Origin: Nocardioides anomalus | Lineage (GTDB): Bacteria > Actinomycetota > Actinomycetes > Propionibacteriales > Nocardioidaceae | DNA: 64,000 bases | Reading direction: 5' to 3' | NCBI RefSeq assembly: GCF_011046535.1 | Contig: NZ_CP049257.1 | Span: forward strand, 3,286,001 to 3,350,000 | Made by a program: the position numbers and the translations under genes | The notes under the pieces: generated by a model | The model's database searches: none | The model's input: the letters and a program-made list of their open reading frames with translations, nothing else | Told to the model about the DNA's origin: nothing | Shown: positions 6,301-16,225 of the stretch, piece by piece | Numbering within the stretch: the stretch's first letter is position 1 | Layout: the number at the start of each line of letters is the position of its first letter

Positions 6301-6488
6301 CCAGCCAGGCTAGGTGCCTCACCAACAGCCCTGTCTAGGCGTGCCCCAGCACGCGGCCACCCACTGGTGCTCGACCAAAGCCGCATTGTTTACGCCTTCC
6401 AACAGCGACGCATCGCGGCAGGTCGGTGCGCCAGGGGCCAGGTCATTTGCGGTGGTAGGACGCACCGAGGCTCCGCATCGTCACCCGG

Positions 6489-7127
6489 TCACGATGCTGG
6501 AGAAGTGATTGTCCAACCCAGCCATCGGAACTCGGAACCTACCGGTGTGCTGAAGTCACGCCAGTGAGCCGTGTACCGTCCGCCGAGGGTGCGGTCGTTC
6601 TTTGGGTACGGGCTATCCGGAGTACCCCATGAGAGTTCGCCGGTCAGCGTTCGTCCTTCGTCGATCCGAAAGGCGGCGTCGCGTGACGTAGCGGCGCCGG
6701 GGTTCCATAGACTTGGGCTGTTAGTAAGCATGATTGCGAGGCCGTTGCTGTCACCATCCGCGGTGAGGCGCTCGAGGCGAAACACGTCGTGGACGAAGCC
6801 GTGCCGAGCTAAGTCCATCGCCGCATGATCGCGCAGCAGGAACAGTTCGTCCGTGATGCCATCGGTGCCTTCCCACTTTCGCGTGGCGTACTTAAACTCG
6901 ACGCGAGTCACGGAGTCTCCGATGCACACCAAGTCGATGTACTCGGCTCTCCGAGTCAATGGATTGCGAGCTGGCACCTCGAGTCTAAGCTTGATATCGG
7001 GGTCCATGGACCAGACCGTTTGCGCGAAAGCGAACTGAAAGTCAGCCTCGGAGTGAAACACGGGTCTCGCGTATGCCAGCCGGCTCATGACATCGGTCAG
7101 CGGTAGCCGGTTGCCGATCATCCCCAT
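6489..7127 (-). CDS. PD-(D/E)XK-nuclease-like hypothetical protein
   Basis: A 212-residue protein with no family I can name. Its first 85 residues have the layout of a PD-(D/E)XK nuclease core: an N-terminal helix with Glu27 (SEADFQFAF), then YIDLV with Asp65, then RVEFKYA with Glu77 and Lys79 (E-x-K). Glu50 (RLEVPAR) lies between. The C-terminal half is mixed and ends in a Trp-rich stretch (FRWLGWTI). No signal peptide or membrane helix is present. Lower GC than flanking genes indicates transfer. It lies downstream of, and on the same strand as, a second nuclease-like gene with a 213-base gap. A restriction or defence role is inferred from fold and context only. Confidence 0.6.
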   Translation of the reverse strand: MGMIGNRLPLTDVMSRLAYARPVFHSEADFQFAFAQTVWSMDPDIKLRLEVPARNPLTRRAEYIDLVCIGDSVTRVEFKYATRKWEGTDGITDELFLLRDHAAMDLARHGFVHDVFRLERLTADGDSNGLAIMLTNSPSLWNPGAATSRDAAFRIDEGRTLTGELSWGTPDSPYPKNDRTLGGRYTAHWRDFSTPVGSEFRWLGWTITSPAS

Positions 7128-7340
7128 GCGTGAAGCCTGCCACCTATTGGCCGTAGACCTATCCTACGCGGCGGGATGACGCTCGATACCGATAGCCCGC
7201 CCGAGCCGAGAGAGGTTGGCGGCCAGGATGCCTACCGCTGCGACGCCCGCGCTTGTCCGAGTTCTATCTTCGAAGTCGGGCCACGGTTTGCTCGATCGGT
7301 ATATCGCGCCGACACCCAGGCGTGCTTACGCGCTCGACCA

Positions 7341-8267
7341 CTAAAGAAAGACGACCGTGAGCGACGTGGGCCTGTCGAGATAGAACTGCTCTAGCAACGC
7401 CGAGACAAAGTCCGCGCGGGCCTCGGCGTCCATTCGAGGCTCGGAAGAGTCATCAAGCGGTATGAGCCGCAGGCCGCCCCTCCGGCGGTCGGCGTTTGGT
7501 AAGCGAGCGCCCCGCAGCTTCTTCGTTACAGAGCTTGCGGCCGGTGAGATTCCGTACTCCCAGGGCCAACTCTTAGCGACGGGGAGCCGAGTCACCTCCG
7601 CAGGCGCTGGGAGCGGGGGGACGGGCGCGGCCATGATGCCGCGTGCCGAAGCCATCCGGGCAGATGCGCCAGAGGCCGCCGCCATCATGTCCCAGAAGTA
7701 GACCGCGCCGAGCGCCGGAGAATTCCACGAGCCTGCAGTCCGTGCCCACCAATTACTCCGACGGGGCACACGTTTGCCGTGAACAGGCGGCAGGCCTGTT
7801 TGATACAGGGCTAAATATCCCTCCTTCTGCCGTTGCTGACCATCCCAGGTGAATGGCGTTGTATTGAGCAGGTAACTGTGTGCCGCAGTGAGTCCCGACT
7901 TAAGCACGTATTCGTTTGTCGTTCGATCGATCCTTTGAACCACCTTGGCTTGGTAGATCCGCAACTTCTTTGAGCGATCGACTATTGCCAAATCGCCGCC
8001 TAGCAGGTATGCCTCGGCTTTCGACGTAATCGCGTAGGCCCCGCCGTCTGGGCCGTGCCGCCAGAGAGCTGCCATCGCTGCATCCGATATCCCGACCTCG
8101 CTGATAGACCAGGGCTCGAAATGACTCGTCACCGCCAGGCCAGCCGCCTTGGCGATCATCACGTCCGTGCGCCGGGCTGAAGTCGCGTACTCCCGCAGAG
8201 TCATGCGAACCTTCCAGGAGGCGATACCCATCGCACCAGCCAACTTCTCCGCGTCGCCCACGGTCAC
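7341..8267 (-). CDS. PD-(D/E)XK-like hypothetical protein with a DxxxQxK-type core
   Basis: A 308-residue protein without a recognised family name. Residues about 52-125 resemble a restriction-endonuclease fold: Glu57 in SISEVGISDAAM, then GGDLAIVD with Asp92, then RIYQAKVV with Gln106 and Lys108, the Q-x-K variant seen in some nucleases. GYLALYQTG follows. The middle (around 180-230) is Ala/Pro-rich and less conserved-looking, and the C-terminus is acidic then basic. The GTG start follows AGGAGG with a 4-base gap; a second GTG two codons on is an alternative. No membrane segment. It is probably part of the island's defence content, but this is inference from fold-like motifs. Confidence 0.6.
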   Translation of the reverse strand: MTVGDAEKLAGAMGIASWKVRMTLREYATSARRTDVMIAKAAGLAVTSHFEPWSISEVGISDAAMAALWRHGPDGGAYAITSKAEAYLLGGDLAIVDRSKKLRIYQAKVVQRIDRTTNEYVLKSGLTAAHSYLLNTTPFTWDGQQRQKEGYLALYQTGLPPVHGKRVPRRSNWWARTAGSWNSPALGAVYFWDMMAAASGASARMASARGIMAAPVPPLPAPAEVTRLPVAKSWPWEYGISPAASSVTKKLRGARLPNADRRRGGLRLIPLDDSSEPRMDAEARADFVSALLEQFYLDRPTSLTVVFL

Positions 8268-8636
8268 GTCACCTCCTCGGAGTTGCTCTCTCGGACATCT
8301 TGTCCGCAACCAGGCCAGGAGGTAGCGCAGGCGCTCAACTCGCAGGCGTGGTTGTGATCCAAGGGAGCGCGATCGGGGCCAGTTTGCTGGGACGTCGCTT
8401 GGAGCCTTTACGATTTTTCGGCTGGGTTCGATGCAGAGGTCGTTGGCTTTCCTGCCGAAGCCGTGGCCTCGCGCCCCTCAATGCGGATGATGGGCACTAG
8501 GTCCGTGCGACCCAGCCCGGCGTAGGCAGATGGATGGTGTCGCCTGTAACGATGATTGACCCTGGAGCAGCCAGGAAACACCGAGGATTGGAAACCAAAC
8601 GTGCTGGGGTACCGAGGACACACAGGGTGGCGTGAC
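8268..8636. other. Divergent intergenic region inside the island
   Basis: A 369-base gap between the nuclease-like gene (minus) and the AbiGi-like gene (plus). It must hold both promoters. Short open frames cross it on both strands, but none has a good start, ribosome-binding site or recognisable protein. No repeat or hairpin stands out. Confidence 0.5.
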
Positions 8637-9269
8637 ATGTCGGAGTACGCGGTCCACTTCACCACAGGCGCGGACGAGAACACTGATGGCTACTGGCCAG
8701 TGATGGGGATCCTGTCGACTGGAAACTTGAACCCGAGCCGACCGTTTGGGCTCGCGGCGGAGTATGACTTCCTCGACGAGACACAGAAGTCCGTCTGTCT
8801 GTCCGAGATCCCCCTGGACCAACTCGACCGGATCGTCGAAAACCGGAGCCAGTTTGGGATCGGTTTCAAGCAGGCTTTCCTAGTCGCAAACGGCGGAGCT
8901 CGTGTCTGGTACGTCGACGACCCGTCGAGCCTCGCTGACAGGTGGCGTTCGATGGTCGCCGCGGCCAAAGCGGAGTCCGACCCCGCTGCCGAGATCTGGC
9001 AACTCACACCGTTCGTGGACCTTGCCTCCGAGACAGCATGGTTCAGTCAGTGGGAATGGGAGCGCGAGTGGCGTGTTCCCCGTGGCCTCTCGTTCACGCC
9101 CGACGACGTCGCCTTCCTCTTCATCCCTGCCCAATTGCACGAGGCGGCGCGGTCATTCTTCGACGAGGTCCGCAACGAGAATCGCGGCCCCAGCTATGAC
9201 TGTTTGCTACTCGACGCCTCATGGGGTGAGGACCAGTTGCAAAAGGCGTTCGAGGATCTGCCGGTCTAA
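8637..9269 (+). CDS. AbiGi-like (putative abortive-infection antitoxin family) protein
   Basis: A 210-residue cytosolic protein resembling the AbiGi / DUF2971-like group. It begins YAVHFTTG, matching the usual VHFT start, then has VCLSEIPLDQLD (residues 53-64), SQFGIGFKQAFLVANGG (71-87), WYVDD and a central WEREWRVPRG (141-150), the family's conserved E-R-E-W-R block. AbiGi proteins are described as the antitoxin-like half of an abortive phage-resistance pair, but no matching AbiGii toxin is visible here. The ATG at 8637 was chosen because the family begins here and AGGGTGG lies 6 bases upstream. An in-frame GTG at 8601 and TTG at 8556 exist. Composition is lower in GC than the flanks. Confidence 0.65.
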   Translation: MSEYAVHFTTGADENTDGYWPVMGILSTGNLNPSRPFGLAAEYDFLDETQKSVCLSEIPLDQLDRIVENRSQFGIGFKQAFLVANGGARVWYVDDPSSLADRWRSMVAAAKAESDPAAEIWQLTPFVDLASETAWFSQWEWEREWRVPRGLSFTPDDVAFLFIPAQLHEAARSFFDEVRNENRGPSYDCLLLDASWGEDQLQKAFEDLPV

Positions 9270-9419
9270 GGCGCCGACGCCGATCTGTGGCCCAGGTGCG
9301 GGCTCTATAGCGAGATCGACAGGATGCGTGTGGCGTGTCATTGGAAGTGATCCAAAGCCACCGCTCGGGATCCGGACGCGTTCGCTATGCGGCAGAGTTG
9401 GTGCACCCGCTTGAGTCGG

Positions 9420-10301
9420 TCAGACGCCGGCAACGTACGCGGTGAGGAAGTGGACGCCGGGGCGGTCGAGGTTGCCACGTGCTCGGTCGTAGCGCTCGGT
9501 GGTTCTGGGGTCGGCGTGCCGCGCAAGGATCTGGGCGTCCCGGAGGGGCACGCCGGCGTCCAAAGCGTTGGTGATAGCAGCGTGACGTAGGGAGTGCGGG
9601 CTGATATGCCGCGGGATCCCAGCCGCCTTCGCAACCCGCATAACCATGCGGTACGCGTCGCGACGGTCGATCGGCTTGCCCGACAGCGGCCGCAGGATCA
9701 ACCGACCGGTGATCCGTTCGCCGCGGCAAGCTTCAAGGACGCGGAGGACCGGGACGGTCAGGGGCATGGTCGCCGGCTTGTCGCCCTTTCCCACCAGGTG
9801 CACACCCGATGGCCGCGAAGGGTCTCCGCGTAAAGCTCGATTCGGACTGCAGCAGCCTCGGATGCGCGGAGCGCGGTGATGCCCAGCAGGTAAGCCAAGG
9901 CGCCGTGGTGGACGGTGATGGTCTGGGCGACCTGCAGGAAGCGGATCAACTCGAGCCGGTCGAGGCCTTGGGTTCGGGACTCGTCGCTGTGCACCTTGGG
10001 TAGCCGGGCGTACACGGCGGGGTCGGCCGGGATCGTGCCGTCGATGTGGGCGAACCGGAAGAAGCCGCGGACGCCATGCATCATCGTGTTGATCGAGGAG
10101 GCCATCAGCCCGGGCGTCGCCCAGGCTGCGGATGTACAGCTCGACGTGTGCGCGTTGGATCCCCAGGAGCGGGTCCGACTCGTTGCCTTCGCACCACTCG
10201 AACCAGCGACGCACCTGATACGTGTAGAGCTCGTGGGTGTGCCCGGCGTAGCGGAGGCACCTGCGACGAGTGCTGCATCGGCGCCTGCGTCGGCGGGACA
10301 C
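9420..10301 (-). pseudogene. Tyrosine recombinase/integrase interrupted by two compensating frameshifts
   Basis: This encodes a phage-type tyrosine integrase, but in two alternating frames. The N-terminal SAM-like part (YQVRRWFEWCEG, HVELYIRSLGDA) is in one frame. From about 10117 the protein continues in the next frame (MMHGVRGFFRFAHIDG, LGITALRASEAAAVRI), and from about 9801 it returns to the first frame (VHLVGKGDKPATMPL to the stop). All catalytic residues are still encoded: Arg (LRASE), Lys (GKGDK), His-x-x-Arg (HSLRH), His (ARHAD) and Tyr (TERYDRA). The indels look like one extra C in GCCCGGGCTG and one missing C in GTGTGCAC. Unless these are sequencing errors the gene is dead. Its exact start is uncertain. 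Confidence 0.85.
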
Positions 10302-10333
10302 GTGTTGCGAGATCTCAGACTAGGGTCGCGCCT

Positions 10334-10783
10334 GTGAAGCGAGTGAGTCTTCCCGACCAATGGCACAGCCGAGACTTACCTGTGCTTGTGGAGGTAGCCC
10401 GCCAACTTCAGACGGAAAACTCGGTGGTGCATGGCCAGGCGGCTCAAGCGCTTGACTTAGAACCCGATGACGCCGCCCGTGCCTTCGATGCACTCATTGG
10501 GGTGTACCTAGCAGGCAAGGTCCAGCGCACTGGGGACGGTGAGATCTACTTGGCCTTTGCTTCGGGAGTCACCGAGAGGGGCCGCCGCGCAACCGGCCTT
10601 TGGCCGGACGGAGACACAGCAGTAGAGCAACTGCTATCTGCGTTGCGGCAGGCCGAGGATCTCACCGACGACCCTGACGAGAAGGGCGCCCTACGCAAAG
10701 CGTCGGGGCAACTGGCCACAGTGTCCCGGAGCGTCGTTGCTGAGGTCATTGCAGCAGTGGTTGCTCGGCAAGCAGGACTTTGA
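10334..10783 (+). CDS. Small hypothetical protein, possibly winged-helix-like
   Basis: A 149-residue soluble protein, divergent from the broken integrase. The N-terminal 75 residues have a helix-rich pattern that could form a small DNA-binding domain (RDLPVLVEVARQL, QAAQALDLEPDDAARAFDAL, VYLAGKV, then a short hairpin GDGEIYLAFASGVTERGRRA). The C-terminal half is helical and charged (LLSALRQAEDLTDD, GALRKASGQLATV), ending in VVAEVIAAVVARQAGL, which could oligomerise. Similar small proteins occur singly in actinobacterial genomes, but I know of no assigned function. The GTG start begins the conserved-looking LPDQW segment. A role in regulating the island is possible but not shown. Confidence 0.6.
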   Translation: MKRVSLPDQWHSRDLPVLVEVARQLQTENSVVHGQAAQALDLEPDDAARAFDALIGVYLAGKVQRTGDGEIYLAFASGVTERGRRATGLWPDGDTAVEQLLSALRQAEDLTDDPDEKGALRKASGQLATVSRSVVAEVIAAVVARQAGL

Positions 10784-11054
10784 CTGGGCTGAGAGTGGCA
10801 GGCAGTCCACCTCGCGGCGGAATCACGCGCTGCGCGGCCGGGCATAACCGCAGATGTCCCTGGATCGACGCGGACGACGCGTCGCTTGAGCTTGCGCCAC
10901 GAAGAACGGAGCCATGTGACGGCCGGTAGTTTCGCGTCACGCATCATGCGCCTCAGAGACTCGATCGCGTTTCGACTCGGATGTGGCACCTCGTGCTCAC
11001 CGGCACGTCTAGGGTTGGCCCGGCGCTCGATCAGCTAGAGGGAGGCCCGTCCGC

Positions 11055-12524
11055 ATGCTCAATATGTCCGCTTGGCAGGAGCTCCAGTTGGATGTGATCA
11101 GCGAACTGCACCTCGACCCATCCAACGTTCGCCTGGAGACTGCGTCCAACGCAGTTGAAGCAGACATCCTCGAAGACCTGTTCGCGAACGAAAATGCCCT
11201 GGGGCTCGTTGAGGGTATCGCTCAGATCGGTTACCTGATTCACGAGATTCCAATCGTAGTGAAGCGCAAGGGTAATTACATCGTCGTTGAGGGCAATCGC
11301 CGGGTGGCCGCCCTGAAGGCTATTCAGAATCCGTTGCTCGTCCCTGAGTTCAAGACTCGCATTAAGAACCTCAGCGCAGGCATCCCCAACAAATCTGCCT
11401 TGAAGAAGATCTCCGTCAAGGTTGCACCCAACCAATCTCAAGCCGACCAGCTGATCGCTTCCCTGCACACCTCAAACCTTCGACGTGCTTGGACTCCTGC
11501 GCGGCAGGCTGCCTTCTTCCAGGCACAGATCGACGCGGGACGCACGTACTCCCAGCTGCTCACGCGCTACCCGACCATCGATGTTCGCAAGTTCGTCTTT
11601 CGGGGCCACATGGTCAATCTGTTCAAGAGCGCGAAGTACTCGGATCCGGCTCTCGCTGACTTCCTCCAGACCAGCAAGTGGAAGCGGAGCCTGTCGGCTC
11701 TGGCGCGAATCTACGAATCAAAGGACTTCCTATCACTCACGGGCTTGGAGATGGACGACAAGGGGAAACTCTCGAAGTCCATCTCAGACAAGACCTTTGC
11801 CTTGGTAGCAGAGCACATCGTTCAAGGCATCAAGGACGGCGAGCTAGATACTCGAAGTTTGAACTCTGTTACAGCTCCGCGGTTCGTGCTCCTGATGTCC
11901 GATCTCGAATCGATCTGTGCTGCCGATCCCGGCGCGGTTTTGAAACCCACCGGACCTAGTGGAACCCCTCCTGCAGGGCCGCCTACCCCCGGGGGTGGCG
12001 GCGGAACTGGTTCCCCGCCGGGAGGCCCAACCAAGAAGACCGCTAAGAAGACCGCTAAGAAGGCCGCGGCGCCTCCAAAGGTGAAGGTTCGCAACCTGGA
12101 CCTGTCGCTACTTTCGGTCCCGCCCACCTATCCGCAGGCAATGACCACGCTGATGTCTGAGTTGTCCGCTATCGACATCCAGCGGACCCCGAACGTTGCC
12201 GTCGTGGTCTTCCGCGCAGTTCTTGAACGTTCTATCAAGTCGTACGCCGAGATTAATGGACACACAATCAAGCCGAACAAGAGCGGCTATGTACAACTAG
12301 CTGACGCGCTCAACTGGCTGCACGACTACGTCAATGCCAACGGGCCCAAGTCACTAGTGCAACCAATCAAGGCCGTGCTTAGCGGCAAGCTCCTCAATTT
12401 CGGAGGGTCAGCGAACGCATTGAACGCAATCAATCACAACCACCACTACCTGGTCGATCCAGACGAAGCCCTGCATATGTGGAACTCGATCAACTCCATC
12501 CTGCGCTTCGCGTTGAAACCATGA
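11055..12524 (+). CDS. ParB-N-domain-like protein paired with a DNA methyltransferase
   Basis: A 489-residue protein. Residues 15-90 form a ParB/Srx-like N-terminal domain: DPSNVRLE (21-28), a helix, IPIVVKRKGNYIVVEG, then EGNRRVAALK (79-88), which matches the ParB GERR-type box. A helical middle follows (about 110-290; TPARQAAFFQAQI, TSKWKRSLSALARI). A Pro/Gly linker and Lys/Ala repeat (KKTAKKTAKK, about 298-340) lead to a C-terminal helical domain (VFRAVLERSIKSYAE to LNAINHNHHYLV and a final WNSINSIL). No chromosome-segregation ParA partner is present, and the classic ParB DNA-binding helix-turn-helix is not obvious. GGGAGG lies 10 bases upstream. Its stop overlaps the methyltransferase start (ATGA), so the two are one operon. 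Function unknown; a defence or modification role is inferred. Confidence 0.75.
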   Translation: MLNMSAWQELQLDVISELHLDPSNVRLETASNAVEADILEDLFANENALGLVEGIAQIGYLIHEIPIVVKRKGNYIVVEGNRRVAALKAIQNPLLVPEFKTRIKNLSAGIPNKSALKKISVKVAPNQSQADQLIASLHTSNLRRAWTPARQAAFFQAQIDAGRTYSQLLTRYPTIDVRKFVFRGHMVNLFKSAKYSDPALADFLQTSKWKRSLSALARIYESKDFLSLTGLEMDDKGKLSKSISDKTFALVAEHIVQGIKDGELDTRSLNSVTAPRFVLLMSDLESICAADPGAVLKPTGPSGTPPAGPPTPGGGGGTGSPPGGPTKKTAKKTAKKAAAPPKVKVRNLDLSLLSVPPTYPQAMTTLMSELSAIDIQRTPNVAVVVFRAVLERSIKSYAEINGHTIKPNKSGYVQLADALNWLHDYVNANGPKSLVQPIKAVLSGKLLNFGGSANALNAINHNHHYLVDPDEALHMWNSINSILRFALKP

Positions 12525-13390
12525 CGCCGACAACTCGTGTAGCAAAACGACCACAGGTTTCGCCCTTAAGGTACCCGGGAGGCAAATCTGCCCTGTACCC
12601 GAGGCTCCGAGAACTCATCCGAAACAACGGTCTTGCAGGATGCACCTACGTCGAGCCTTACGCAGGCGGCGCAGGAGCCGCCCTGAGCCTGTTGGCAACC
12701 GGCCAAGTTGGTCGCATCGTCATCAACGACTTTGACCCCGCGATTGCTGCCTTCTGGACAACCCTTGTTAATAACCCAGACCTGATGATCAAGAGGATTC
12801 AGAAAGTAAGGCTCGACGTTCGTGAGTGGAAGCGGCAGAAGGCCATTTATATGGCGGCGAACGAGGCTGACATGGCGGAGCTCGGTTTTGCTACGTTCTA
12901 CCTGAACAGGACCAACAGGTCTGGTGTGTTGAACGGCGGCCCTATCGGTGGCCTCGACCAGACAGGCAACTACAAGATCGATGCGCGGTTCAATCGCGAC
13001 GGCCTCCAGGAGCGAGTCCGGATCATCTCGCTTTACGCCGACAAGATCACCGTCAGCTCTCGCGACGGGCTCGACGTCATTCGTGAAGCAACCAGACGAG
13101 CAGACACCTTCGTCTACGCCGACCCTCCGTACTTCGAAAAGGCTGGCTCGCTGTATCTCAACGCTTTCAAGGCAGCAAACCATGAGGCACTTGCCAAGAT
13201 CATGAACGGCCGTGCAAAGAAGAACTGGGTGTTGACATACGACAACGTTCCCCAAGTGTCGGCCCTCTACGGCGCGAGGCGGAGGGTCGAGTTCGGCCTG
13301 CACTACTCGGCACACAGGGTCACAAAGGCCACCGAGGTCATGGTGTTCTCCGACCCACTGGACATCTCGACGACGCTAGATCAATCCTGA
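12521..13390 (+). CDS. D12-class adenine-N6 DNA methyltransferase (Dam-like)
   Basis: A 289-residue DNA adenine methyltransferase of the MethyltransfD12 family, which moves a methyl group from S-adenosylmethionine to N6 of adenine in a short DNA site. Motifs are complete: PLRYPGGKS (15-23), VEPYAGGAGA (44-53, motif I), ND-FDPAI (69-75), FYLNRTNRSG (126-135) and the catalytic DPPYFEKAG (201-209, motif IV). The length is normal for the family. The ATG overlaps the stop of the ParB-like gene, and there is no adjacent conventional restriction endonuclease. Target sequence cannot be read from the protein. Base use is lower in GC than the core genome. Confidence 0.93.
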   Translation: MTPTTRVAKRPQVSPLRYPGGKSALYPRLRELIRNNGLAGCTYVEPYAGGAGAALSLLATGQVGRIVINDFDPAIAAFWTTLVNNPDLMIKRIQKVRLDVREWKRQKAIYMAANEADMAELGFATFYLNRTNRSGVLNGGPIGGLDQTGNYKIDARFNRDGLQERVRIISLYADKITVSSRDGLDVIREATRRADTFVYADPPYFEKAGSLYLNAFKAANHEALAKIMNGRAKKNWVLTYDNVPQVSALYGARRRVEFGLHYSAHRVTKATEVMVFSDPLDISTTLDQS

Positions 13391-13645
13391 CCCTGACCGC
13401 AGCCATGTCGATTCCACATGGTCCTCGCGCGCTCGGATCGTAAACCGTAGGGCACGAGCAGTAGCGCTTCGTCTGGCAAGCACGCGCTCCTGATGCATAC
13501 ACCGCGAAGGTCCGCTCTCGGTGCCTTGCACCCGCGTCACAGTGGGCGGAGTGACGCACTCAGAACAACGGGGGCTCGTCAGATCCGGTCATCTGCTCGT
13601 ATCCGCTGGCTGAGATGCAGAGCCCGACGACAAGACCCACCTCGC

Positions 13646-13808
13646 GACCGCGTCCTCCACGACTCCGTCGGCATGGGCACCGTCGTCACCGTCGAAGGCT
13701 GGGCGACAAAAAGTCGCTCGCATCGACTTCGGCAGCGAGGGCGTGAAGCGACTCCTCCTGCGCTGCGAACCGAGAGAGAAGCTCACGGACGCGAAGCGGA
13801 CGGACTAG
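13646..13808 (+). pseudogene. Degenerate copy of the pcrA 3' end, inverted and convergent
   Basis: On the plus strand this stretch encodes DRVLHDSVGMGTVVTVEG, then, after a 2-base loss, VASIDFGSEGVKRLLLR...REKL and a short tail to TAG. This is the C-terminal tail of PcrA, whose real gene ends head-on at 13805 on the other strand. The two TAG stops share the bases CTAG (13805-13808). No helicase domains precede it, so it is a remnant, not a gene. Confidence 0.85.
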
Positions 13809-13948
13809 AGCTTCTCGACAGGTGCGTAGCGCAGGAGGAGGCGTTTCACGCCTTCGCTGCCGAAGTCGATGCTCGCGACTTGTTTGTCGCCTTCGCCTTC
13901 GACGGTGACGACGGTGCCCATGCCGAAGGAGTCGTGGAGGACGCGGTC
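13646..13948. repeat. Large imperfect inverted repeat formed by the pcrA tail and its remnant
   Basis: The arms are about 13646-13795 and 13808-13948, almost without a spacer. They share long identical stretches such as GACCGCGTCCTCCACGACTC and GGCATGGGCACCGTCGTCAC. A transcript reading through either side could form a very long hairpin and act as a terminator or antisense partner. Confidence 0.8.
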
Positions 13949-16225
13949 GCCGGGGTCGAGGGAGGGGATGGTGCGGGCGGGCTTGGCCTTGCTGGCGGCG
14001 TCGGCTCGGGCGGCGGCGGAGGAGAAGTTGCGGCGGCCGCGGTCGGTGGGTGAGCCGGAGCCCCAGCCGCCTCCGCCGCCGTACGACGAGGAGAGGTCGG
14101 GGCGGTTCCAGGCGGCCTGGGCGGCCTCGGTGCGGCGCCAGTCGACGAGGTCGACGGGGAGCTCGTCGAGGAAGCGGGAGCCGGGGTTGTGGCTGGGGGC
14201 GCCCCAGGCGGAGCGGACGACGGCGCGGGAGATGTAGAGGCGCTCGCGGGCGCGGGTGAGGCCGACGTAGGCCAGCCGGCGCTCCTCCTCGAGCTCGGGC
14301 TGGTCGCCGAGGGAGCGCGAGTGGGGGAAGACGCCGTCCTCGAGGCCGGTGAGGAAGACGACGGGGAACTCCAGGCCCTTGGCGGTGTGGAGGGTCATCA
14401 GGGTGACCAGGCCCTCGTCGCCGGCGGGGATCTGGTCGGTGTCGGCGACCAGCGAGACGCGCTCGAGGAAGTCGGGCAGGCCGGGGGTCAGCACGCCGGC
14501 GTCGACGTCGGTCGGGTCGGCGGAGGGACCGGCGACGGGGTCGTCGGCGAACTCGCGGGCCACGGCGACGAGCTCGCCGAGGTTCTCCTGGCGGGTCTCG
14601 TCCTGCGGGTCGTCGGAGTCCTCGAGCATCTTGAGGTAGCCCGAGCGCTCGAGCACCGACTCGAGCACGACGTCGGGCCGCTCGCCGGCGTCGACCATCG
14701 ACTGGAGCTCCTCGATCATCGCCACGAAGCCGTCGATCGCGGTCACGGCGCGGGTGGCCAGGCCCGGCACGTCGCCCGCGCGCCGCAGCGCCTCGAAGAA
14801 GGTGAGCCCGTTGCCGGCGGCGTACGCGCGGACGGCGGCCACGGTGGTGTCGCCGATCCCGCGCTTGGGGACGTTGAGGATCCGGTCGAGGCTGACCTCG
14901 TCGGCGCCGTTGACCAGCAGCCGCAGGTAGGCCAGGGCGTCGCGGATCTCGCGGCGCTCGTAGAACCGGACCCCGCCGACGACGCGGTAGGGCTGGCCGG
15001 TGCGGATGAAGACCTCCTCGAAGACCCGCGACTGCGCGTTGGTGCGGTAGAACACCGCGACGTCGGCAGGCTTGTGGCCCTCGTCGGTCAGCTTGTCGAT
15101 CTCGCTGGAGACGAAGCGCGCCTCGTCGTGCTCGTCGTCGGCGACGTAGCCGACGATCCGCTCGCCGTCGCCGGCGTCGGACCAGAGCTTCTTGTCCTTG
15201 CGGCCCTTGTTGTGGCCGATCACGGAGTTGGCCGCGGTGAGGATGGTCTGGGTGGAGCGGTAGTTCTGCTCCAGCAGGATCGACGTCGCGTCGGGGAAGT
15301 CCTGCTCGAAGTCGAGGATGTTGCGGATGTTCGCGCCGCGGAAGGCGTAGATCGACTGGTCGGCGTCACCGACGACCATCAGCTCGGCCGGCTCGACCCG
15401 CTCGCCGCCGGAGGTCTCGACCTCCTCGTAGCGCGGCGCGCACAGCTCGGCGATGAGGGCGTACTGCGCGTGGTTGGTGTCCTGGTACTCATCGACCAGC
15501 ACGTGCCGGAACCGGCGCCGGTAGACCTCGCGCACGTCCGGGAACTGCTGGAACAGGTGGACGGTGAGCATGATCAGGTCGTCGAAGTCGAGCGCGTTGG
15601 CCTGGCGCAGCCGCTTCGCGTAGAGGGTGTACGCCGCGGCGTAGGTCTCCTCCAGCTTGTTGCTGGCCAGGTCGGTCGCCTCGGCGGCGTCGCGCAGCTC
15701 GTTCTTGTGGTCGGAGACCCAGTGCAGCAGCGACCCGGGCTGGAACTTCTTCGGGTCGAGGTCGAGCTCCTTGACCACGTTGGTCATCAGCCGCTTCTGG
15801 TCGGCGGCGTCGTAGATCGAGAACGACGACTTGTAGCCGAGCCTATCGATCTCCTTGCGCAGGATGCGCACGCAGGCGGAGTGGAACGTCGAGACCCACA
15901 TGATCCGCGCGCGCTTGCCGACCAGCTCCTCGACGCGCTCCTTCATCTCGGCCGCGGCCTTGTTGGTGAAGGTGATGGCGAGGATCGAGCCGGGGTGGGC
16001 CTTGCGCTCGGAGATCAGCCACGCGATCCGCCGGGTGAGCACCCGGGTCTTGCCCGAGCCCGCGCCGGCCACGACCAGCAGCGGCGCGCCCTCGTGGACC
16101 ACCGCGGCACGCTGCGGCTCGTTGAGCCCCGCGAGGAGCTCGTCGCGGCTCGGCCCGGAGCGGCGCGGCGCCTGCTCCGCGGTCGCGGTGAGGTGCTCGA
16201 AGCCGGGCAGCGCGTCGGTGCTCAT
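13805..16225 (-). CDS. pcrA: ATP-dependent DNA helicase PcrA/UvrD
   Basis: An 806-residue superfamily 1A 3'-5' helicase acting in nucleotide-excision and replication-linked repair. Seen in order: LNEPQRAAVV (Q motif), VAGAGSGKT (Walker A, about 51-59), ITFTNKAAAEMKERV (Ia), VDEYQDTN (II, about 245), VVGDADQSIYAFRGA (III), LEQNYRST (IV), VVGGVRFYERREIRD, TLMTLHTAKGLEFPVVF (V) and YVGLTRARERLY (VI). The C-terminal tail after a Gly/Ser-rich linker carries DRVLHDSFGMGTVV, the Tudor-like module that binds RNA polymerase in PcrA. Length is normal for the family. It marks the return to core high-GC sequence. Its 3' end is copied, inverted, just downstream. Confidence 0.96.
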   Translation of the reverse strand: MSTDALPGFEHLTATAEQAPRRSGPSRDELLAGLNEPQRAAVVHEGAPLLVVAGAGSGKTRVLTRRIAWLISERKAHPGSILAITFTNKAAAEMKERVEELVGKRARIMWVSTFHSACVRILRKEIDRLGYKSSFSIYDAADQKRLMTNVVKELDLDPKKFQPGSLLHWVSDHKNELRDAAEATDLASNKLEETYAAAYTLYAKRLRQANALDFDDLIMLTVHLFQQFPDVREVYRRRFRHVLVDEYQDTNHAQYALIAELCAPRYEEVETSGGERVEPAELMVVGDADQSIYAFRGANIRNILDFEQDFPDATSILLEQNYRSTQTILTAANSVIGHNKGRKDKKLWSDAGDGERIVGYVADDEHDEARFVSSEIDKLTDEGHKPADVAVFYRTNAQSRVFEEVFIRTGQPYRVVGGVRFYERREIRDALAYLRLLVNGADEVSLDRILNVPKRGIGDTTVAAVRAYAAGNGLTFFEALRRAGDVPGLATRAVTAIDGFVAMIEELQSMVDAGERPDVVLESVLERSGYLKMLEDSDDPQDETRQENLGELVAVAREFADDPVAGPSADPTDVDAGVLTPGLPDFLERVSLVADTDQIPAGDEGLVTLMTLHTAKGLEFPVVFLTGLEDGVFPHSRSLGDQPELEEERRLAYVGLTRARERLYISRAVVRSAWGAPSHNPGSRFLDELPVDLVDWRRTEAAQAAWNRPDLSSSYGGGGGWGSGSPTDRGRRNFSSAAARADAASKAKPARTIPSLDPGDRVLHDSFGMGTVVTVEGEGDKQVASIDFGSEGVKRLLLRYAPVEKL

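Follow-up and report, generated by a model that had tools for sequence, protein, structure and literature searches.

Genes A and B, located in a 64,000-nucleotide stretch of the Nocardioides anomalus genome (contig NZ_CP049257.1, positions 3,286,001 to 3,350,000; hereafter the window), form a real, intact, and strongly coupled two-gene system that, as judged by homology, belongs to the already known PD-λ-5 family. On balance, this pair is probably an anti-phage system of the PD-λ-5 type that senses unmodified DNA and has the HEPN-like end of protein A as its effector. A preliminary description of the same DNA had suggested either a modification-based defence or an epigenetic switch; the defence reading is supported by homology, as both proteins match PD-λ-5 models, and it leads to a family that is not new.

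PD-λ-5 was found in 2022 by functional selection for phage protection in E. coli (Vassallo et al., PMC9519451), where it changed the plating or plaque size of nine phages of a ten-phage panel, that is, of all but one; of the family, the E. coli member alone has published evidence of protection against phage. The system has been called in genome surveys, yet no account of its working was found, and the portions of PMC9519451, PMC10482375, PMC12824646, PMC10799925, and PMC12629846 that deal with it give no mechanism past a remark on RM and Abi. The features of the pair and its surroundings are as follows, in coordinates of the window.

11055..12524, plus strand: gene A, PD-Lambda-5_A by PADLOC models, with ParB-like fold, helix-turn-helix, linker, and HEPN-like domain (489 aa)
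11055..11489, plus strand: predicted ParB/Srx-type NTP-binding domain of A, aa 1-145
11292..11303, plus strand: GNRR (Box II) of A, aa 80-83, invariant in aligned relatives
11490..11924, plus strand: predicted helix-turn-helix/middle domain of A, aa 146-290
11946..12089, plus strand: Gly/Pro/Lys-rich disordered linker of A, aa 298-345, from pLDDT and poor conservation
12120..12521, plus strand: HEPN-like domain of A, aa 356-489
12213..12239, plus strand: R387, E391, and K395 (RxxxExxxK) in the HEPN-like domain of A
12420..12437, plus strand: L456-N457-x3-H461 of A, the HEPN motif with Leu at the arginine position
12521..12524, plus strand: ATGA shared by the A stop and the B start
12521..13390, plus strand: gene B, D12 N6-adenine DNA methyltransferase, PD-Lambda-5_B (289 aa; PF02086, PADLOC PDLC04018)
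13121..13132, plus strand: DPPY (catalytic) of B at aa 201-204, invariant in aligned proteins
6450..13640, no strand, limits approximate: lower-GC accessory island around A-B, from GC and same-genus absence

Family membership and coupling of the two genes

Both frames are open and overlap by the shared ATGA, as had been described, and from this arrangement A and B are read as one operon. A decayed remnant was ruled out as a reading of the pair, the open frames and motifs being intact. The best PADLOC match of A was to model PDLC04017 (E 9.7e-33, aa 3-273), and PDLC04015 spanned aa 15-480 with E 2.3e-16; of the 25 PADLOC matches listed for this protein, 24 are to PD-Lambda-5_A. The assignment of B as a D12 adenine methyltransferase was confirmed by PF02086 (E 1.5e-17; 64.7 bits against a Pfam cut-off of 22) and by its DPPY motif, found in 32/32 aligned proteins, and PDLC04018 (E 1.1e-105) was ahead of the generic MTase_II model (E 8.6e-78). 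B scored under the curated cut-off of the Dam subfamily TIGR00571 (65 vs 114.85 bits) and was the only D12 methyltransferase found in the 5.12 Mb single-contig genome. The pair thus shares with PD-λ-5 two components matched by family models, an operon, and a mobile-looking setting, whereas it represents an actinobacterial branch, and this likeness is drawn through family models, of which the best for A covers only aa 3-273.

A and B are regular neighbours elsewhere, the pairing being found in 70/70 contig loci and 6/6 genomes. A homologue search retrieved 488 A homologues; these counts rest on two samples, namely, 80 contig loci and 346 genomes. For the contig loci, 211 A relatives were found via A-like patterns and the best 80 were used, so that they favour closer relatives; ten of them were left out because A ran into the end of a contig or had fewer than 400 aa. 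In all 70 remaining loci with a full-length A, B was located within 300 bases, in 68 cases downstream on the same strand and in 2 convergently, and 48 of the 68 same-strand loci have a start codon (ATG, GTG, or TTG) in the B frame at the position of the 4-nt overlap. Among the loci left out, B matches occur in L061 and L078 and, weakly, in L035; they are absent from L030, L054, L064, L072, L074, L076, and L080, of which L076 scores best as gene C (see below). The second sample, 346 genomes of the phylum including that of N. anomalus, was searched regardless of neighbourhood, with at most four candidates scored per genome among the matches listed. An A match was present in seven genomes and extended over both halves in six, three of which (G149, G163, and G312) were counted as full-length on the basis of N- and C-terminal pieces in one open frame; the seventh, G310, has an N-terminal match only and no B. 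The six best B matches (352-450 bits) adjoin the six full-length A genes, and the next B-like match reached 161 bits. Chance neighbourhood is ruled out by this pairing. The three parts of A diverge in parallel with B (r 0.95, 0.94, and 0.92 over 64 of 71 pairs, near-identical ones being collapsed), which may reflect shared descent.

Relatives of B were also found with other partners. In Citrobacter phage phiNP (L111) and Streptococcus phage phiGBSVK-D (L112), A is replaced by an AAA ATPase gene that precedes a B-type D12 methylase about 39% identical to that of the window. In the samples analysed, A thus always occurs with B, whereas B relatives occur with other partners, a pattern that fits a dangerous A and a protective B. 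The first half of the PADLOC candidate model PDLC04607 (PDC-M38A) corresponds to ParB-like proteins, WPhi gp98 among them, and its second half to the phiNP ATPase. A scan of viral contigs revealed no A relative, and 17 records of a phage collection match A partially, none over 80% of its length; A and B of phage AS1 gave no match in E. coli genomes. The A proteins of L004 (Tessaracoccus caeni) and L005 (a Trueperaceae metagenome assembly, from another phylum) are equal in length and score, due either to recent transfer or to a binning error.

Genomic setting and four-gene operons

The accessory island proposed earlier stands out clearly in GC on its left side and for A-B, and less so on its right. 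Between 6.5 and 13.5 kb, GC in steps of 500 bases amounts to 0.56-0.68 (0.56-0.59 for A-B itself), as compared to 0.69-0.74 in the left and 0.66-0.76 in the right flank. Relatives of A were absent from 24/24 genomes of the same genus and present in 1/14 of the same order (E 4.7e-57). In agreement with the preliminary description, Pfam detected neither a restriction enzyme nor a ParA in six neighbouring ORFs, and a partition locus was rejected as a reading for want of ParA among them. A conventional restriction-modification system is likewise improbable, since family models revealed no endonuclease in the ORFs scanned, although A itself may have nuclease activity; type II systems with a D12 methylase also combine this enzyme with an adjoining partner gene, but their partner is an endonuclease, and A is none by the family models used.

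Several other elements were noted in the island, which also holds ORFs that match no family. Remnants of a tyrosine integrase occupy 9420-10366 on the minus strand, divided between two frames that overlap, and make up a broken integrase. Weak similarity to AbiGi (PADLOC E 2.2e-4; Pfam E 0.0064, which does not reach the cut-off) makes the ORF at 8556-9269 a possible second defence gene. At the right edge, an inverted extra copy of the final ~140 bases of a helicase gene (13805-16225, minus strand), which we take to be of the UvrD/PcrA type, lies tail to tail with the original (13644-13784 vs 13808-13950), the arms being 98% and 84% complementary. In six relatives both arms match a single place, and the copy is possibly the scar of an insertion or inversion. 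The left-flank proteins of the window had no match within 12 kb beside the helicase gene in these six relatives, so that the empty site cannot be reconstructed from them. Around A-B loci in general, the families encountered include relaxase (4), ResIII (4), SWI2/SNF2 (3), AbiEii-type AAA (3), GmrSD_N (2), and Schlafen (2), as determined from 103 of 339 listed ORFs and with 25 of 88 families listed.

In 11/80 contig loci, 10 of them titled as actinobacterial and 1 in a deltaproteobacterial assembly, A-B is followed by gene C, encoding a second ParB-like protein, and gene D (L015, L018-L024, L026, L028, and L031). Three further loci have the order A-B-C and two C-D-A-B; the window contains A-B only. 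The C protein of L015 belongs to PHROG family 3694, and the D proteins of L015 and L022 belong to families 14650 and 3984; gp98 and gp96 of the E. coli phage WPhi, which adjoin an annotated cytosine methylase, fall into the same PHROG families as these C and D proteins. The DIVAW...YGQVA pattern of D is reminiscent of PD-(D/E)XK nucleases.

Domain anatomy of protein A

The anatomy first proposed for A consisted of a ParB/Srx-like N-terminus, a helical middle, a Lys/Pro-rich linker, and a helical C-terminus. The N-terminal assignment stands, and the motifs quoted for it were located at aa 21-26 (DPSNVR) and 79-88 (EGNRRVAALK); the middle models as a helix-turn-helix; the linker was found at about aa 298-345, with a pLDDT below 50 at aa 298-320 and 322-341 and poor conservation; the HEPN-like nature of the C-terminus had been missed. 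In the structure model, residues 1-290 take the form of a ParB/KorB/Noc-type NTP-binding fold plus helix-turn-helix, the closest folds of the N-terminal part being KorB, ParB, and Noc. The predicted ParB fold carries the Box II arginine of the ParB/Srx NTP-binding fold, within a GNRR motif that is invariant in 85/85 and 40/40 aligned proteins. Pfam and NCBIfam gave no family above cut-off for A, and a sequence search of solved structures revealed no relative (best E 0.21). According to the pertinent part of a 2025 ParB-fold survey (PMC12704722), the NTP bound by a ParB-fold protein cannot be predicted. With the ParB/KorB/Noc CTPases A shares, by the model, the N-terminal fold, the GNRR of Box II, and the helix-turn-helix, but it differs in its HEPN-like C-terminus and in that no ParA was seen adjoining it. 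ParB proteins carry a dimerisation domain at the position of this HEPN-like end.

HEPN is the fold of many RNase toxins. The predicted structure of the A C-terminus showed a HEPN-like fold in VIA-align, with a Z that helical bundles also obtain through their common arrangement. The C-terminus has an E-x3-K in helix 2 and a polar-x3-H at a helix end, both of which are described among the hallmarks of HEPN (PMC3710099). R387, E391, and K395 are each invariant in 85/85 closer proteins; in 40 diverse A proteins, R387 is conserved in 39, E391 in 37, and K395 in 16, and by the residues listed the K/R of E-x3-[KR] is present in 19/40. In the same set, H461 is found in 39, N/D/H at position 457 in 39, and L/M/F at position 456 in 40; the relative L059 lacks the histidine as well. 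The C-terminus of A hence keeps the HEPN histidine and the polar and acidic residues without the canonical arginine. As the Rx4-6H motif is not present, its arginine position being occupied by L/M/F in 40/40, the domain is referred to as HEPN-like; HEPN families with the histidine and without the arginine are listed in PMC3710099. For the same reason, together with the histidine missing in L059 and the K/R present in 19/40, RNase activity of A is doubtful, and the domain may only dimerise.

Similarity searches with this part of A gave mixed results. Foldseek returned no significant HEPN match (none with E below 0.6; 2hsb at E 1.2). In profile comparison, the HEPN family DUF4145 gave P 3.9e-4 (vs P 0.16 for a TetR control), at a probability of 35.5%, over the first helices only, the histidine lying outside the match, and 1/40 A proteins touches DUF4145 in Pfam (E 0.0046). 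HepT was rejected as the closest HEPN family (P 0.22). The domain has the HEPN-like fold, E-x3-K, and polar-x3-H in common with a DUF4145-like branch of the superfamily but has L/M/F in place of the Rx4-6H arginine. The combination of HEPN, ParB, and methylase has precedent, since the tables of the 2013 HEPN survey (PMC3710099) list Saro_3948 as a HEPN-ParB fusion and the MAE_28990 HEPN family in operons with ParB and DNA methylase genes; such ParB and methylase partners are a feature in common with A-B. HEPN is not mentioned in the main text of the ParB-fold survey (PMC12704722). Vassallo et al. (PMC9519451) noted remote HEPN similarity for 6/21 of their systems, among which PD-λ-5 may be; a review table (PMC10952713) gives HEPN for other PD systems and not for PD-λ-5. 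A Gordonia plasmid (L086, 3791-4369) carries a C-terminal HEPN-like piece of an A gene with no annotated gene beneath and no B match in the stretch, an apparent remnant.

Proposed mechanism and alternatives

In the favoured reading, B would mark self by methylating the adenine of a short motif wherever this occurs on the host chromosome, as the motifs of B suggest. The N-terminal fold and helix-turn-helix of A, putatively gated by NTP, would load at or near copies of this motif that are unmethylated, such as those on incoming DNA of phage or other foreign origin. Thereupon, the HEPN-like end would be brought together or released and would most likely cut RNA, stopping phage production or the cell in an abortive outcome.

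The preliminary description had considered a ParB-like nuclease as candidate effector, a role for which the HEPN-like domain of A is now a rival. Were A restriction-like, its ParB/Srx domain would be an NTP-regulated nickase or nuclease on unmethylated DNA and its HEPN-like domain would serve for dimerisation only. This would agree with the missing HEPN arginine and with the DNase or nicking activity described for ParB-like domains, including a Bacillus cereus ParB-adenine methylase fusion (PMC5512222), but the near invariance of R387, E391, and H461 in the 40 diverse proteins exceeds what a dimer interface seems to need, and no nuclease family scored above cut-off in A with Pfam or NCBIfam, which leaves this reading unlikely. 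In that fusion, as in GmrSD (ParB-like DUF262 plus HNH; PMC10952713), a ParB-like fold serves restriction or nicking, according to the parts of these sources concerned, whereas the C-terminal domain of A is a different one and the methylase of A-B is a separate gene; GmrSD_N was weakly touched by 2/40 A relatives (best E 0.0025).

An addiction module, with B acting like an antitoxin, A harming cells that lose methylation after loss of the island or prophage, and defence arising as a by-product, would account for the lack of any full-length A without B in both samples and for the mobile setting with integrase remnants and lower GC. PD-Lambda-5, discovered in a P2-like prophage, also tends to be prophage-encoded in Actinobacteria, as reported in the section of PMC10482375 concerned. 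However, the family was selected for phage protection and affects most panel phages (PMC9519451), and we consider addiction as its main function rather improbable. It is very improbable that A is a KorB/Noc-like DNA-binding regulator with sites methylated by B, hence an epigenetic switch, regulator, or partition factor; the nearest folds of its N-terminal part would suit such a role, but the absence of the ParA family from the six neighbouring ORFs, the HEPN-like end, and the PADLOC membership point away from it and to defence, and nothing observed here speaks for an epigenetic switch.

The anatomical reading of A gives a testable mechanism for PD-λ-5. It is conceivable, as a tentative proposal, that PD-λ-5 embodies a new principle of self/non-self sensing, in which an NTP-gated ParB clamp that is excluded by methylation switches on a HEPN-like effector, and that in the A-B-C-D branch, found mostly in Actinobacteria, one methylase licenses two ParB-based sensors. 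If true, this would connect immunity with the clamps of chromosome segregation, and it would explain how a methylase can take part in defence where no restriction enzyme is recognisable.
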